Positions 9,145 to 23,686 of a DNA stretch of 23,686 nucleotides are shown here, piece by piece; within the stretch, counting starts at the first letter, position 1; the number at the start of each line of letters is the position of its first letter. The notes below the pieces were generated by a model. It did no database searches. It saw only the letters and a program-made list of their open reading frames with translations, and was not told the origin of the DNA. The position numbers and the translations under genes were made by a program. Source of the DNA: a virus; the IMG/VR virus record IMGVR_UViG_3300046534_000593, positions 1 to 23,686 of that record, one strand, 5' to 3'.

Positions 9145-10575
9145 ATGTCAAAAACAGTCAATAAACGATCTGCGGTTATGGCTGCAATTGTCCAATCCTC
9201 GGAAAAGGGCCGCGCTCTTATGGGCGGCACCGAAGCAATGCGAAAGGCTGGGCAGAAGTACCTGCCTAAGTTTGGCGCGGAAGACGATCAAGACTACAAG
9301 GCTCGGCTGGCGTCGTCTTGGCTGTTCAACGGGATGCGCAAAACCGTTAAAGACATGACCGGGCGCGTATTCACAAAACCCATTGAGATAGCAGAAGGCC
9401 CTGACCGCCTTAAAGAATTCGCCGAAGACATCAACATGCAGGGCCAAGACCTGAGCGCGTTTGCATCTGACATATTCAAGGACGCCTTTGTGCCGGGCAT
9501 TTCTTACATTATGGTGGATGCCCCGCGACGTGAGGGCGAGACCACACGCGAGCAGGCTGCAACGCTTGGCCTGCGTCCTTACATGGCGCACCTGAAGGTT
9601 GAGGATGTGCTAGGGTTCAAAACTGAGACGTACGGCAACGTCCTAGCGCTGTCTATGCTGCGGATCATGGAGTCAGTCAAAGAAACAGACCCAGCCGATG
9701 AATTTACGCAAATCAGCGTGGATCAGGTCCGAGTGCTTACGCGCGAGGGCGGCACAGTATCGGTGCGCATCTACCGTGAGAACGACAAAAACGACTGGCT
9801 TGTGTTTGACGAATACCTGACCAATGCCGAGGAAATCACGGTTATCCCGTTTTATGCCCAGCGCACGGGTTTCTTCACCGCTGAACCTGTGCTTGAAGAC
9901 CTTGCGGACGTGAACATTGCGCATTGGCAGTCACAATCTGACCAGCGCAATATTCTGCATGTTGCCCGCGTGCCGATCTTGTTTGCATCTGGCAGGCGAC
10001 CTGATGAGCCGATTGTGATCAGTGCCTCGAACGCGGTTACTTCAGAAGATCCGGCCTCAAAGCTGGTATGGGTTGAGCACACCGGCGCGGCTATTGGCGC
10101 GGGGCGTACTGACCTCAAAGACCTGGAATATCAGATGCAGGCGCTTGGCCTTCAGTTGCTTGTAGCGAGCAATGAGACCGCAACCGGTGCTGTGCTGGAC
10201 TCTGCCAAGGAAACATCAACCCTGTCAATGATGGCCGACAACCTGAAGGACGCACTTGAACAGGCGCTTAAATGGATGGCGTTTTATGACGGGTTGCCAG
10301 AGCAGGACATCACAATCGTCGTCAACAAAGACTTCGGCATTATGCCACTGACCGCGCAAGAAGTGCAGGTCATGCAACAGGACGTTGCGCTCGGCCTGTT
10401 GTCAAAAGAGGCATATTATGAGGAACGCAAACGGCGCGGATTCTTGCGGCCTGATCTTGACACTCAAGGCGACATGGACGCAATCTCACAGCAGCCGCCT
10501 GACCTGACTGGTGAGGCGTTGGACCTGAGCGGCACGAGCGGTGTTGATAGCGCATTGGCGGCTTTGAATGGATAG
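9145..10575 (+). CDS. Portal protein, DUF4055 type
   Basis: Forms the dodecameric channel at one capsid vertex that binds terminase and the neck. The 476-residue sequence has features I know from DUF4055 portals: an N-terminal YKARLASSWLFNGMRKTV region, FVPGISYIMVD near 115-125, DVNIAHWQSQSDQRNILH near 255, and a Gln-rich helix with ETATGAVLDSAKE near 355. TAAGGAAA precedes the ATG. It follows the large terminase by 9 nt and overlaps the collagen-like gene by 8 nt at its end, in one late transcript. Confidence 0.9.
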   Translation: MSKTVNKRSAVMAAIVQSSEKGRALMGGTEAMRKAGQKYLPKFGAEDDQDYKARLASSWLFNGMRKTVKDMTGRVFTKPIEIAEGPDRLKEFAEDINMQGQDLSAFASDIFKDAFVPGISYIMVDAPRREGETTREQAATLGLRPYMAHLKVEDVLGFKTETYGNVLALSMLRIMESVKETDPADEFTQISVDQVRVLTREGGTVSVRIYRENDKNDWLVFDEYLTNAEEITVIPFYAQRTGFFTAEPVLEDLADVNIAHWQSQSDQRNILHVARVPILFASGRRPDEPIVISASNAVTSEDPASKLVWVEHTGAAIGAGRTDLKDLEYQMQALGLQLLVASNETATGAVLDSAKETSTLSMMADNLKDALEQALKWMAFYDGLPEQDITIVVNKDFGIMPLTAQEVQVMQQDVALGLLSKEAYYEERKRRGFLRPDLDTQGDMDAISQQPPDLTGEALDLSGTSGVDSALAALNG

Positions 10576-11383
10576 GGATCTAGGAGAGTTTGTCGGCAAG
10601 GGTTTTGCTGTGCTGCGTGATCGTCTGAAGGCCGTTGAGTCACGTAAGGCGATCAACGGCATTGACGGGCAAGACGGCAAGGACGGAAGTGCAGGGCCGC
10701 AAGGTTCGGCAGGCCCGCAAGGTGACGTAGGGCCTGAAGGTAAGACAGGCACGCAAGGCGATGTTGGCCCAAAGGGCGATCAAGGTAACAGCGTAAAAGG
10801 AGATAAAGGCGATGAAGGCGAATCCATACGGGGCGAAAAAGGGGACCAAGGGAACCAAGGCCAAGCCGGTGAAGCGGGGCAAGTAGGGCCAAAGGGCGCA
10901 AGGGGTGAACCTGGCGCGAAAGGCAACGACGGGCGAACAGTAACAGGCCCACAAGGTGACAACGGAGAGGGTGTCCAGGCGGCGTCAATCAACGAACGCG
11001 GGCACCTGATCATCACGCTTGACGATGGCCGCAAGATCGACGCAGGCAGGGTCAAGGGCCGAGACGGGCAGTCATATCAAGGCATGATCGCAGGCGGACC
11101 AAGCACGCCCAGACCGTCGGGCATTGCAACTCTGGACTTTGGCGCGTCGGCTAAGACATCAACCGTTGTGGTCACTGGTGTTGATGCGATCACCGCGACC
11201 TCGGTTGTGCTGGTCAAAATGCGCATTGAAGACACCGACGATCACACTGCCGAGGATCTGTTGATTGACCCAATACGAGTTGAGGCGTTTGCAATTGTGG
11301 CGGGCGTTGGCTTTACGATATACGGCGCGATGGAAAACGCGCCTGCAAATGGAAAATATAACGTCCAGTGGGCGCTAGGTTAG
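10568..11383 (+). CDS. Collagen-like fibre protein
   Basis: A 271-residue structural protein. Residues 31-135 are Gly-X-Y repeats (about 30 triplets) interrupted three times by five-residue units: GNSVK (73-77), GESIR (84-88) and GRTVT (122-126). Such repeats form a collagen-like trimeric rod, common in phage fibres. The N-terminal helix (FVGKGFAVLRDRLKAVESR) may be the attachment or trimer-starting part. Residues about 185-271 (TLDFGAS onwards, ending YNVQWALG) look like a beta-sandwich tip found at the end of phage fibres. Because it lies between portal and head genes, a head or neck fibre is as likely as a tail fibre. Confidence 0.85.
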   Translation: MDRDLGEFVGKGFAVLRDRLKAVESRKAINGIDGQDGKDGSAGPQGSAGPQGDVGPEGKTGTQGDVGPKGDQGNSVKGDKGDEGESIRGEKGDQGNQGQAGEAGQVGPKGARGEPGAKGNDGRTVTGPQGDNGEGVQAASINERGHLIITLDDGRKIDAGRVKGRDGQSYQGMIAGGPSTPRPSGIATLDFGASAKTSTVVVTGVDAITATSVVLVKMRIEDTDDHTAEDLLIDPIRVEAFAIVAGVGFTIYGAMENAPANGKYNVQWALG

Positions 11384-19281: not shown

Positions 19282-19711
19282 TTTTGAAGATCAGATGCGC
19301 CGCATTGAGATTAACACCGTGCGCAGGCTGGATATGTTTGGGCGTAAGATTGCTTTAGAGCTGTTCAGGCGCGTGATTTACAAAACGCCTGTTGATAGCG
19401 GGCGCGCGCGGGCGAACTGGCAGGTGACAATCGGATCGGCAGCAAGTGGCACAGTTGAGATTGATGACACTAACGGCACAGCCACAATGACAAGGGCAAC
19501 CGCAGCGAGCCGCGGCTTTAGGGCAGGCGATATTATCTACCTGACCAACAACCTGCCCTATATTATGAAGCTGGAAGAAGGCGGTTATCCTGACGGGCCT
19601 AAAACAGTTGGCGGGTTTTCGCGTCAAGCTCCTGCGGGCATGGTCGCGCTGACGGTTCAAGAGTTTGCCATAGTCGTCAATCAAATTCTGGTAGAAGTGA
19701 GAGACACATGA
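19274..19711 (+). CDS. HK97 gp10-like neck/tail protein
   Basis: A 145-residue protein with the family hallmark TPVDSGRARANW (residues 38-49), then IYLTNNLPYIMKLEEGG and a C-terminal helix with MVALTVQEFAIVVNQ. I take GTG at 19274 (VASFEDQMRR), which overlaps the previous stop by 8 nt and gives the usual short N-terminal start; longer ORF starts at 19223 or 19259 would run deep into the preceding gene. The protein completes the head-tail junction. The stop overlaps the next start by ATGA. Confidence 0.82.
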   Translation: MASFEDQMRRIEINTVRRLDMFGRKIALELFRRVIYKTPVDSGRARANWQVTIGSAASGTVEIDDTNGTATMTRATAASRGFRAGDIIYLTNNLPYIMKLEEGGYPDGPKTVGGFSRQAPAGMVALTVQEFAIVVNQILVEVRDT

Positions 19712-20115
19712 GCAATGTAGACAGCGACATCACGCAAGCCCTGAACACGCAAGCCGAGGTCATGATTGCGGCTCTGAGCTATCCTGCAATCTGGGCTGGC
19801 AAAGGCGGTGACACGCCTGCGGTTGAATACGTGACGATCCAGCAATTGCGGAACGACGATGTGCCTCTTGGGTTGTCAGATCAGGTCTACACGCGGCAAG
19901 GGTTTTTAATCATCACGCTGGTTTCTGATCTGGGCATTTACGACGTGGTGGCACGCAAGCGGGCCGGTGCCATTGCGGCGTATTTTAAGCGCGCGCAAAC
20001 ACTCAGTGCAAACGGCACCAAGTTGACAATAGTTGGCGCGACGATCCGCGACGGGCGGCAAGAGGCCCAGCGATGGGAGACGCCCGTTTATATCAGTTAT
20101 AGGAGCCTAACATGA
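19708..20115 (+). CDS. Tail terminator-like protein, DUF4128 type
   Basis: A 135-residue protein that likely caps the tail tube and joins it to the neck. The order of elements fits DUF4128/tail completion proteins: a first helix (SDITQALNTQAEVMIAAL), YPAIWAGKGGDTPAVEYVTI, LIITLVSDLGIYDVVARKRAGAIAAYF, and a closing ETPVYISYRSL strand. It is coupled by ATGA overlaps to genes on both sides. Confidence 0.75.
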   Translation: MSNVDSDITQALNTQAEVMIAALSYPAIWAGKGGDTPAVEYVTIQQLRNDDVPLGLSDQVYTRQGFLIITLVSDLGIYDVVARKRAGAIAAYFKRAQTLSANGTKLTIVGATIRDGRQEAQRWETPVYISYRSLT

Positions 20116-20366: not shown

Positions 20367-20858
20367 ATGACGACTTCAAACCAAATCGGTATTACGCTTT
20401 ACGGCGTGGCGGGTGTACCATCTGCGAACACAAGCACGGCTTTTGAGGCGCTTACATTTGTGCAGTTGAAAAAGACGCAACTCTTGCCCAATTTTGGAGT
20501 GGCCCACAGCAACATTGACGTTTCTGACCTCGGCACTGGCTTTACATCGGGCGTAAAAGGGGCCGGCACTGGCAACGACTCTCCGTTTACTTTCCACGGC
20601 GATGGCGCTGACACTGGCATGGCAACGGCGATTGTGGCGGCTGGCGCTGACGCAGGGCTGTATTCTTTGAAGATCGTCAAAGGCACTGGCACAGACTCCG
20701 GCGACGGCCCTGCACCAGTCACAGGCGACGTTGTGGAGTATGCGCAGGGCTACTTGCACACGTTTGTCCTCAACCCCAAGGATGACGCATCCTTTGAGGG
20801 CGGGTCAATCAATTTCAAACAGAACGCAAAGACCATCACTGCGACTGAGCCTGCCTAA
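20367..20858 (+). CDS. Major tail tube protein
   Basis: A 163-residue protein, Gly/Ala/Asp-rich with few charged helices, typical of a tail tube subunit. It begins MTTSNQIGITLYGVAG, contains NFGVAHSNIDVSDLGTGF, and ends ASFEGGSINFKQNAKTITATEPA. I chose ATG 20367, with AAAGG 7 nt upstream, over a TTG at 20352. Position between the tail terminator and chaperone genes supports the call; the family is assigned by context and composition, not by a specific motif. Confidence 0.75.
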   Translation: MTTSNQIGITLYGVAGVPSANTSTAFEALTFVQLKKTQLLPNFGVAHSNIDVSDLGTGFTSGVKGAGTGNDSPFTFHGDGADTGMATAIVAAGADAGLYSLKIVKGTGTDSGDGPAPVTGDVVEYAQGYLHTFVLNPKDDASFEGGSINFKQNAKTITATEPA

Positions 20859-20940: not shown

Positions 20941-21438
20941 ATGGACTTGACTTCGCTCAACACAAAAGACGCGGCTGAAGATGGCGCGGAACTGCACTTT
21001 ACGCACCCTGCAATGGGTCATTTGATGTATTCAGGTGAGGGCGCTGACCTTATCACCGGCGCGATTGTGGACGCTGAAAAGCCGCATGTGCCTATCATGG
21101 GTATTGTGCGCGGGCTTGAGAGCAAAACCGTTCGGGATATGCTCAAGGCATCGGCCAAAGCAAAGTTGACAAGTCGCAATGTCAAGAACAACAGCCCAAC
21201 GCACATCCCGACAGACGCGGAAGTTGAGCGCGAAATGTCCGAAGCGCAGAAGTCCGGCATGGATCTTGCTTGTGTTCTTCTTGCCGACATCACCGGCCTG
21301 ACAATTAACGGCAAACCGATGGAGCCGACAGACGCAAACAAGCGCAATTTCTTCGGCCAGTCTGATGACTTGATTACGCAGGTGCTTGACGTTGCGAAGG
21401 ACAAGAGCCGTTTTTTCGCCAAAGGCTTGAAGCGTTAA
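20941..21438 (+). CDS. Tail assembly chaperone, zero-frame product (lambda gpG-like)
   Basis: Helps assemble tail tube subunits on the tape measure. The 165-residue acidic helical protein includes TVRDMLKASAKAKLTSRN and DAEVEREMSEAQKSGMDLACVLLADITG, and ends SRFFAKGLKR. AAAGGA precedes the ATG. A slippery site near codon 158 lets some ribosomes change to the -1 frame and extend the protein with the downstream open frame, giving a 289-residue product like lambda gpGT. Position between tube and tape measure genes is the standard one. Confidence 0.82.
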   Translation: MDLTSLNTKDAAEDGAELHFTHPAMGHLMYSGEGADLITGAIVDAEKPHVPIMGIVRGLESKTVRDMLKASAKAKLTSRNVKNNSPTHIPTDAEVEREMSEAQKSGMDLACVLLADITGLTINGKPMEPTDANKRNFFGQSDDLITQVLDVAKDKSRFFAKGLKR

Positions 21439-21446
21439 TTCGAGCC
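21411..21446 (+). promoter_or_regulatory. Programmed -1 ribosomal frameshift signal
   Basis: Slippery heptamer TTTTTTC (21411-21417) is in the correct phase (T TTT TTC) with the chaperone frame. After a 6-nt spacer (21418-21423) an 8-bp hairpin forms: GGCTTGAA (21424-21431) with TTCGAGCC (21439-21446), one G-U pair. Its loop carries the zero-frame TAA stop. Spacing is in the range of known -1 sites. Confidence 0.85.
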
Positions 21447-21809
21447 GCTGAACAAATAGGGTTTCTGCACTCAACGATTGAAAAAGACGGAAAACCCCTA
21501 AGCAATAACCCGCGCGGCAAAGAGATTGAGTTGCGCGGGCAAGAGGTTCCAATGGTGCAACTTGACGCGGGTGAGTATCTTCTTGACGCACTAATGAAGC
21601 TAGGGTTCTGCGCAATCGCCCCGATGATCGGACCCGCGCCGCACAGTTACGGGAATGTTTACGACTTTGCGCGCGCGACCCAAAGAGTTGACGAGCCTTG
21701 GGAAATTGAAGCGCTGGTTGATATGTCCTCCGCATATTGCCGTGGATTGAATCGCGGCAAGAACCCGTTTGCCAAGTCCCCGCTGCAAATGTTTGACGAG
21801 AAAAACTGA
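21417..21809 (+). CDS. Tail assembly chaperone, -1 frame extension (lambda gpT-like)
   Basis: This frame is open from the slippery site to a TGA at 21809, adding 130 residues to the 159 encoded up to the slip. It reads RQRLEALIRAAEQIGFLH and continues through LDAGEYLLDALMKLGFCA and WEIEALVDMSSAYCRGLNRG. It lacks a good independent start: the TTG at 21531 has no ribosome site and would lose conserved-looking helix content. Frameshifted expression explains it better. It ends 12 nt before the tape measure GTG. Confidence 0.8.
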   Translation, partial: RQRLEALIRAAEQIGFLHSTIEKDGKPLSNNPRGKEIELRGQEVPMVQLDAGEYLLDALMKLGFCAIAPMIGPAPHSYGNVYDFARATQRVDEPWEIEALVDMSSAYCRGLNRGKNPFAKSPLQMFDEKN

Positions 21810-21821
21810 AGGAATACCGCT

Positions 21822-23686
21822 GTGGATGTAGCCTCTCTATCACTTCGCGTTGACACGTCCGACCTGACCGACGCACAGCGTGAATTGCGCAGACTAGGCA
21901 ACCAAGGCGGGCAAACTGAAGGCCAGGTCACACGGTTTGGCGGGGCTGCACAACGTAGCTTTGGCGTTGTCGCGGCGGCTGCTACGGCTGCACTTATTTC
22001 GGTTGTGTCTCTGGGCGCTGGGTTCAATAAATTTGTAGCCAATACTATTACGGCAGATTCGGCACAGGCACAGTTAGCTGCCGCGATCGCGTCAACAGGA
22101 GGCGCAGCAGACCGAACTCTTGAGCAGCTAAACCAGCACGCGGCGGCTTTGCAAAAGATCACAAACGTTGGCGATGAAGCAACAAACGCGATGCAAGGCG
22201 TTCTTTTGACATTTACGCAGATTCAAGGGAGCGTCTTTGACCGTGCAACGGCGGCAGTTCTTGACCTGTCAACGGCCATGGGAACCGGCCTTAATGCGGC
22301 GGCGCTTCAGGTCGGCAAGGCTCTCAACGACCCTGTTCTAGGCATGACAGCGCTTTCGCGCTCAGGTATTCAATTCACGCAAGCGCAAAAAGATGTGGTT
22401 GCGGCAATGGTAGAAACTAACAATGTCGCCGGTGCTCAAGCGATCATTCTTGACGAGCTTGAAAAGCAGTTTGGCGGATCTGCAGCGGCGGCCAGAGGCA
22501 CGCTTGGCGGTGCACTGGAATCATTAGGCAACGCATTTGGTGACCTTTTTGAGATTGCTAACGAAGGTTCTGATTCATTGCGCACGGCTGTTGAAAGCTT
22601 AATTGATACAGTTTCAGACCCTAGCTTTGTTGCGGCAATTCAAGGCATTGGGGTTGCTATGTTTGGAATGGCGCAGGTTGCCATAAAGGCGCTATCTGCA
22701 ATTTCAAGCGCTTTTACGTTGGCTGCAGAAAATGTCAAAACGCTAGGGGTTGTGATTGCGGCTATAGTTGCGACACAAATACCGGCTGCGGTTGCCGCGT
22801 TTATTGCTTACACCGCAGGCGTGGGTGCGGCTGGCTTAGCAACTGGTGCGTTGACCGCCGCTGTCACTTTGGCACGCGCGGCATTGATCGCACTTGGCGG
22901 GCCGATTGGTATAATTTCGGGATTGCTTGGCGCGGTTGCAGCCGCATACATCCTATTTAATGACAATGTTGACACAGGCACGGAAGCGAGCACGCGGGCG
23001 CAAGAGGCGATGGGTCTCTTAAACGAGACTATTGACACCTTTTCACAAATTGAAAGCCCTGCCGCACAAAGCGCTGCTCTGGGGAATGCTATGGCTTATA
23101 GGGAGCAGGCAGCGGCGGCACTTGAGGTTGCAAGGGCAGAATTGCTAAAAATTCAAGCGATGAATGAAAGCGCAGAGCAGCGGCTTGCTGAGGGCGGCGG
23201 CGTCATGCCTTTTGGAACAAAATTGGGCCAGGAAAGCGCGAATGCCAGTGCTGAAGTTGTTGACGAGTTGACCTTTGCGCTTAATATGGCAGACTTTAGG
23301 ATCAAATCCCTTGCCACAACTATAATGAACCAACAGGTGCCTGCTGTTGTTAAGGCGGCAAAAGTGACTGACGAAGCAACGGACATTATCAAGAAGTCTA
23401 GCGGTGCTGTTGACGACTTGACCGAATCCCTAGACGATGGCGCAACCTCGGCTGACGGGTTCGCAGACACATTCCGCGACGGTATCACGAGCGCGTTTGA
23501 CTACGTGCTAGGCGGCATGAAAAACGGCATGGACGGGCTGCTTGACATCTTTAAGCGCACACTGATCGACATGATCAAGTATGCCATTATGAACCCGATT
23601 AATTTGCAGGGCGGCATGAGCATTGCGGGATCATCGGGCGGGGGAATGGGCGCAAGTTTGGCTGGTGGCCTTGGCGCGTCCTTGAC
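21822..23686 (+). CDS. Tail tape measure protein (truncated by window end)
   Basis: Sets tail length and is ejected with DNA. It begins with GTG, with AAGGAA about 9 nt upstream, and stays open for at least 621 codons to the end of the window. Features: an N-terminal VASLSLRVDTSDLTDAQRE coiled start, hydrophobic stretches at about 50-72 and 305-385 (VVIAAIVATQIPAAVAAF onwards), a prophage tail-length domain including LLTFTQIQGSVFDRATAAVLDLS and ALSRSGIQFTQAQ, and a lambda-TMP-like FRDGITSAFDYVLGGM to IDMIKYAIMNPI near the end. It follows the chaperone gene, as expected. Confidence 0.92.
   Translation, partial: MDVASLSLRVDTSDLTDAQRELRRLGNQGGQTEGQVTRFGGAAQRSFGVVAAAATAALISVVSLGAGFNKFVANTITADSAQAQLAAAIASTGGAADRTLEQLNQHAAALQKITNVGDEATNAMQGVLLTFTQIQGSVFDRATAAVLDLSTAMGTGLNAAALQVGKALNDPVLGMTALSRSGIQFTQAQKDVVAAMVETNNVAGAQAIILDELEKQFGGSAAAARGTLGGALESLGNAFGDLFEIANEGSDSLRTAVESLIDTVSDPSFVAAIQGIGVAMFGMAQVAIKALSAISSAFTLAAENVKTLGVVIAAIVATQIPAAVAAFIAYTAGVGAAGLATGALTAAVTLARAALIALGGPIGIISGLLGAVAAAYILFNDNVDTGTEASTRAQEAMGLLNETIDTFSQIESPAAQSAALGNAMAYREQAAAALEVARAELLKIQAMNESAEQRLAEGGGVMPFGTKLGQESANASAEVVDELTFALNMADFRIKSLATTIMNQQVPAVVKAAKVTDEATDIIKKSSGAVDDLTESLDDGATSADGFADTFRDGITSAFDYVLGGMKNGMDGLLDIFKRTLIDMIKYAIMNPINLQGGMSIAGSSGGGMGASLAGGLGASL

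Follow-up and report, generated by a model that had tools for sequence, protein, structure and literature searches.

Evidence for a programmed −1 ribosomal frameshift in the tail assembly chaperone genes of a divergent family of environmental phages

Two overlapping frames ahead of a tape measure gene

The question raised by this locus is whether two overlapping phage reading frames, G and T (20941-21809), are joined in translation by a programmed −1 shift of the ribosome. The window, that is, the whole stretch of DNA analysed, is a 23.7-kb metagenome contig from IMG/VR (23,686 nt); the tail genes and signal elements given below all lie on its plus strand. Its gene order is the usual one for a long-tailed phage: large terminase, portal, major head protein, tail terminator (19708-20115; PF13554, E=1.2e-19; phrog_179, E=6.9e-16), major tail protein (20367-20858; phrog_158, E=2e-5), G, T, and a tape measure protein that runs off the window's end (21822-23686; phrog_27166, E=2.4e-34). 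The G/T pair is flanked by the major tail protein gene on one side and the tape measure gene on the other. Between the portal and head genes, 10568-11383 encodes a predicted protein of 271 aa in which collagen-like Gly-X-Y repeats form one long stretch.

G is read from the ATG at 20941 to the TAA at 21436-21438, giving 165 aa (20941-21438). Near its 3′ end, the heptamer T TTT TTC (21411-21417; Phe-Phe) stands in the zero-frame phase ..AGC CGT TTT TTC GCC.., and this is the single occurrence of T TTT TTC on the plus strand of the window. The −1 frame is open from 5′ of the heptamer through 21809, with its TGA at 21807-21809; T, taken as the −1 frame domain past the slip (21417-21809), comprises 130 codons and the TGA, and the predicted fusion would measure 159 + 130 = 289 residues. 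The heptamer is followed by a 6-nt spacer, GCCAAA (21418-21423), and then by an 8-bp hairpin, in which the 5′ arm GGCTTGAA (21424-21431) and the 3′ arm TTCGAGCC (21439-21446) form seven Watson-Crick pairs and one U·G pair (21428-21442) around a 7-nt loop, GCGTTAA (21432-21438), that contains the zero-frame TAA. A preliminary description of this DNA had listed the same elements: the position of its in-phase heptamer is correct to the base, its 6-nt spacer and 8-bp stem with the stop in the loop are present on the sequence, and translation gives the same 130 open codons and 289-residue fusion.

In G genes, strict X XXY YYZ heptamers occur at a background rate of 0.0043 (about 0.4%) per in-phase site, and the chance of finding at least one in phase within the 49-nt overlap is ~6%. 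Given this rate, the heptamer of the window, taken alone, is weak and suggestive evidence of frameshifting.

The slippery heptamer and the G and T proteins among relatives

Direct scans of IMG/VR with the window's G and with its T yielded no confirmed relative, both proteins being too divergent. Relatives were instead gathered with a tape measure protein query, which led to 30 loci, and more were added with a T alignment and a second tape measure query; a T profile then located T at 129 loci, which together hold 60 distinct overlap sequences. T is in −1 relative to the ORF before it in all relatives examined, and a strict in-phase heptamer, either here or two codons downstream, is present in 59 of the 60 distinct regions (GGGAAAC in 33, TTTTTTC in 10, TTTTTTG in 10, AAATTTT in four, GGGAAAG in one and TTTTTTT in one). 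Hence, the heptamer is conserved far beyond chance.

The sole exception among the 60 is L136, a distant and weak relative with the same G/T layout and no strict heptamer. Two sampled Vibrio phages, K20 (L153) and 1.137.O (L154), likewise have the G/T layout and no strict X XXY YYZ in the overlap; their last codons up to the G stop read TCG GAA ACT TTT ATT CTC GCG TAG, and the same T domain occupies the −1 frame relative to a G-like ORF. Evidently, the family does not always use a strict-heptamer signal. The preliminary description had named homologues without the heptamer, or with the two frames fused or separately started, as evidence that would speak against a frameshift; apart from L136 and the two Vibrio phages, the comparison produced none. 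With one query, the only T relative found in a genome collection was a contig of a planctomycete MAG labelled Blastopirellula (NVWB01000285.1), which may be phage DNA wrongly assigned to that bin.

For the window's G, the match to PHROG 313, 'Tail assembly chaperone', is weak (E=0.003). G is alignable across the family, and 23 of 37 G family members match PHROG 313, the best with E=9.5e-12. Structures were predicted from alignments without isolate-phage rows. The predicted fold of G (mean pLDDT 80.5) matches two tape-measure chaperones of Caulobacter phage Sansa in a viral structure library, of 161 aa (E=1.1e-5) and 310 aa (E=4.9e-5), and more weakly the chaperones of Escherichia phage Seurat and CcrColossus. 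Searches against solved structures returned weak, unrelated matches only, which say nothing against the chaperone assignment, and Pfam held nothing relevant for the window's G or T. These family and predicted-fold matches support the homology of G to known tail assembly chaperones. The C-terminal residues of G vary with the heptamer (FF, FL, GN, NF), and the slippery property is retained.

T modelled alone (AlphaFold, 31 aligned sequences) has a mean pLDDT of 95.4, with a first helix at residues 2-17 past the slip. The window's T matches PHROG 18915 (E=1.3e-5), a family whose function is not assigned in PHROG, and NCBIfam gave nothing for T; its predicted fold weakly matches the chaperones of Seurat (E=0.05) and Sansa (E=1.6). 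In PHROG 4966 (311 positions), the fusion of the relative L025 matches the G-side stretch and that of Acinetobacter phage Effie the T-side stretch, as expected if PHROG 4966 holds fused proteins.

If T were instead a separate gene, reached by internal initiation or by re-initiation past the G stop, the heptamer would be incidental. The T-frame codons TTG 21531 and ATG 21552 do have AGAG- and AGAGG-like sequences upstream, and GenBank gives T its own late-starting ORFs, labelled hypothetical proteins, in Paracoccus phage vB_PkoS_Pkon1 (L002:3543-4348), two Acinetobacter phages (L004 and L005) and Rhizobium phage P106B (L151). However, the TTG, the first start-like codon in T (residue 39), lies 38 codons past the slip and the ATG 45, which puts both well downstream of the first predicted helix and also beyond the conserved L-A-Q motif that comes after the slip. 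Among the representatives, the T frames hold no start between the frame opening and the slip; their first starts are scattered, often within the conserved domain, and are thus not conserved in position as the heptamer is. Furthermore, an annotated long fusion exists in Sansa. We therefore regard a separately initiated T as very improbable, and the reading frames support the view that T is translated solely as an extension of G. In the four GenBank phages just named, the conserved start of T and the heptamers (GGGAAAG, AAATTTT, TTTTTTT) suggest a frameshift fusion that the annotation has missed; throughout the family, most annotations leave T without a function or start it late.

The hairpin and its association with the heptamer

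The predicted folding energy of the window's hairpin is −12.7 kcal/mol (z = −2.67), and an equally good fold was obtained in 2 of 200 dinucleotide shuffles; Rfam has no match at the slip site. The hairpin tests across the family used 30 representatives less than 85% identical, which are related sequences, so that the p values overstate their independence. In these 30, dinucleotide shuffles fold less well than the 45 nt past the heptamer (mean z −0.90, Wilcoxon p=9e-4), and so do most stretches of the neighbouring genes (mean percentile 0.22). When the T codons past the stop are replaced by synonymous ones, the window's fold is weakened in 98% of trials (34 nt, p=0.02), and the same holds across 29 representatives (34 nt, p=1e-5); the effect is smaller over 45 nt (p=6e-4 overall, 0.23 for the window).

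The position of the stem tells a similar story. Mean hairpin energy among the representatives peaks 7 nt past the heptamer, and hairpin onset across the family peaks at 6-8 nt. Scored as stem onset 6-8 nt past the heptamer, the pure-U regions rank 1 of 239 offsets, and they still do so when reduced to seven representatives, one per lineage by our own choice; the GGGAAA regions rank 2 of 239, with the best offset one base earlier. In 5 of 29 representatives, no stem starts 5-8 nt downstream of the heptamer. In most regions, the pure-U heptamers lie 25 nt and the GGGAAAC heptamers 19 nt before the G stop, two codons apart and in the same phase. Given that the two heptamers sit 6 nt apart relative to the stop, the hairpin tracks the heptamer and not the stop.

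This bears on two points of the preliminary description. It had counted the stop in the loop among the features that make the site clean enough for a test case; the stop was scored inside the hairpin in 21 of the 24 representatives with a stem starting 5-8 nt downstream, and in 13 of these 21 it is fully unpaired. The count depends on the stem chosen. A stop in the loop is probably a family habit that follows from geometry, as the overlap ends soon past the slip and the hairpin spans the next 15-25 nt. It had also proposed comparing homologues for a conserved heptamer and for compensatory changes in the stem, and the heptamer is indeed conserved. Fixed-column covariation is not significant in the GGGAAAC group, where it could be tested (439 of 2000 shuffles), and the 3′ arm there also encodes a conserved Ala-Ala; the synonymous-codon test favours pairing. 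The family-level evidence for the hairpin is the position of the stem and the synonymous-codon tests, not fixed-column compensatory changes.

A run of six Ts could also join the frames at the level of RNA, if RNA polymerase slipped on it and left an insertion or deletion in some of the mRNAs. The homopolymer is present, and transcriptional slippage is known in bacteria (PMC5009743), but T6 is short, the relatives keep a two-triplet X XXY YYZ (GGGAAAC, AAATTTT) and not a homopolymer, and the hairpin keeps its ribosome-type spacing of 6-8 nt from either heptamer. We give transcriptional slippage as little credence as a separately started T. That G and T are a single gene, broken by a sequencing error or by a true inactivating frameshift mutation, is hardly credible at all: sequencing errors commonly fall in homopolymers and the contig comes from a metagenome, but dozens of independent contigs and isolated phages show the same −1 layout with different heptamers.

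Under the programmed frameshift reading, a modest new detail of this family is that its lineages appear to have swapped a pure-U heptamer and a GGGAAAC two codons downstream for one another, with the hairpin moving as well. The window and its closer relatives carry pure-U heptamers, which are not the same seven bases as GGGAAAC. On the T tree, six changes between heptamer classes are needed where three is the minimum possible, although several placements, the window's included, are on long branches and the exact number of changes is uncertain. L091 (TTTTTTG) and L114 (GGGAAAC) are sisters on this tree, with support of 99/96. It should also be noted that many GGGAAAC sites are preceded by the codon TTG, as if by a remnant of TTTTTTG.

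A Shine-Dalgarno-like AAGGA (21397-21401) lies 9 nt upstream of the window's heptamer, where it suggests a possible 5′ stimulator. Shine-Dalgarno-like tetramers are found 9-11 nt upstream in 15 of 21 pure-U regions versus none of 34 GGGAAA regions, against a background of about 0.15. When codons are shuffled synonymously, the effect in the pure-U group is moderate (combined p=0.007, for sequences that are related), and the AAGGA of the window is not beyond codon choice (p=0.33); the GGGAAA group, too, scores low by this energy measure (p=6e-4). Since the motif-count signal fell to this level in the window under the synonymous-codon null, we do not claim AAGGA as a stimulator. The enrichment at pure-U sites is a suggestive lead, partly explained by codon use.

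It is conceivable, and we put it forward tentatively, that the whole signal behaves as a movable cassette: the heptamer would switch repeatedly, the hairpin would re-form 6-8 nt past whichever heptamer is used, the Shine-Dalgarno-like sequence would accompany pure-U sites only, and the G:GT ratio might be held constant by the exchange of parts. In any case, the homologues pair heptamers and hairpins in a range of natural combinations, with which one could test how the chaperone ratio is kept while the signal evolves.

Proposed mechanism and comparison with known systems

Taken together, we consider it very probable, from sequence comparison, that the site is a programmed −1 ribosomal frameshift in the tail assembly chaperone gene of a tailed phage. 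The lambda-G/GT-like frameshift put forward in the preliminary description is supported by the gene order, the PHROG and predicted-fold matches, the absence of a T start near the slip, and the conserved heptamer and hairpin. Most ribosomes would read G to its TAA and produce the 165-residue chaperone. In a minority, the tRNA-Phe in the P site (on UUU) and that in the A site (on UUC) would both slip one base back onto UUU UUU, helped by the hairpin beginning 6 nt downstream, and these ribosomes would continue in the −1 frame to give the 289-residue G-T fusion. By analogy with gpG and gpGT of lambda, G would coat the tape measure protein and T would recruit the tail tube protein, with neither G nor G-T staying in the virion. 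We infer that the shift occurs; its efficiency, the G:GT ratio, and the assembly roles of G and T are taken over from lambda.

The likeness to lambda gpG/gpGT consists in a chaperone gene before the tape measure gene, a −1 shift close to where G ends, and a T that would be made only as a fusion. The slippery site of lambda is GGGAAAG, in contrast to TTTTTTC with a stable hairpin in the window, and searches of phage-collection proteins with the window's G and T did not return lambda. The G/GT shift of lambda is a low-level −1 shift and is widely conserved (PMC5009743).

In SPP1, gp17.5/17.5* corresponds in function to gpG/gpGT, and its putative −1 shift is at UUUUUUC, a heptamer identical to that of the window (PMC6316719). 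The pure-U Phe-Phe heptamer, which the preliminary description had called a variant, is therefore not new: it is already on record for SPP1, and TTTTTTC recurs in 10 of our 60 regions. SPP1 differs in being a Bacillus phage, in having no detected protein similarity to the window's proteins, and in that no hairpin is described in the passages of PMC6316719 consulted.

Among Caulobacter phages, AAAAAAC has been reported for phiCbK and GGGAAAC for Colossus (PMC3556154). The record of Sansa annotates its long chaperone with 'ribosomal slippage', and GGGAAAA is found at the annotated position. Sansa, phiCbK and CcrColossus thus resemble the window in an annotated or inferred −1 slippage, and Sansa and CcrColossus also in the predicted fold of G; Sansa differs in having no comparable hairpin at its slip site (−7.3 kcal/mol).

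In E. coli, H_HH.U_UU.Y motifs, U_UUU_UUC included, are among the most efficient; G_GGA_AAC is weak, although IS elements probably make use of it (PMC4066793). The standard components of bacterial −1 signals include a structure 5-8 nt downstream and, optionally, a Shine-Dalgarno-like sequence upstream (PMC4066793), and the 6-nt spacer of the window falls within this range of structure onset. E. coli dnaX and the IS3 family share with the window a heptamer and a structure 5-8 nt downstream, and some of these signals have an upstream Shine-Dalgarno-like stimulator (PMC4066793, PMC5009743), although the genes and the heptamers are others; the architecture is common to them, and the ancestry is not. 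The locus is a well-conserved new example of a device used by most long-tailed phages, with a mechanism that is not itself new, and the G/GT frameshift is supported here in this divergent family of environmental phages by comparison and not by eye.
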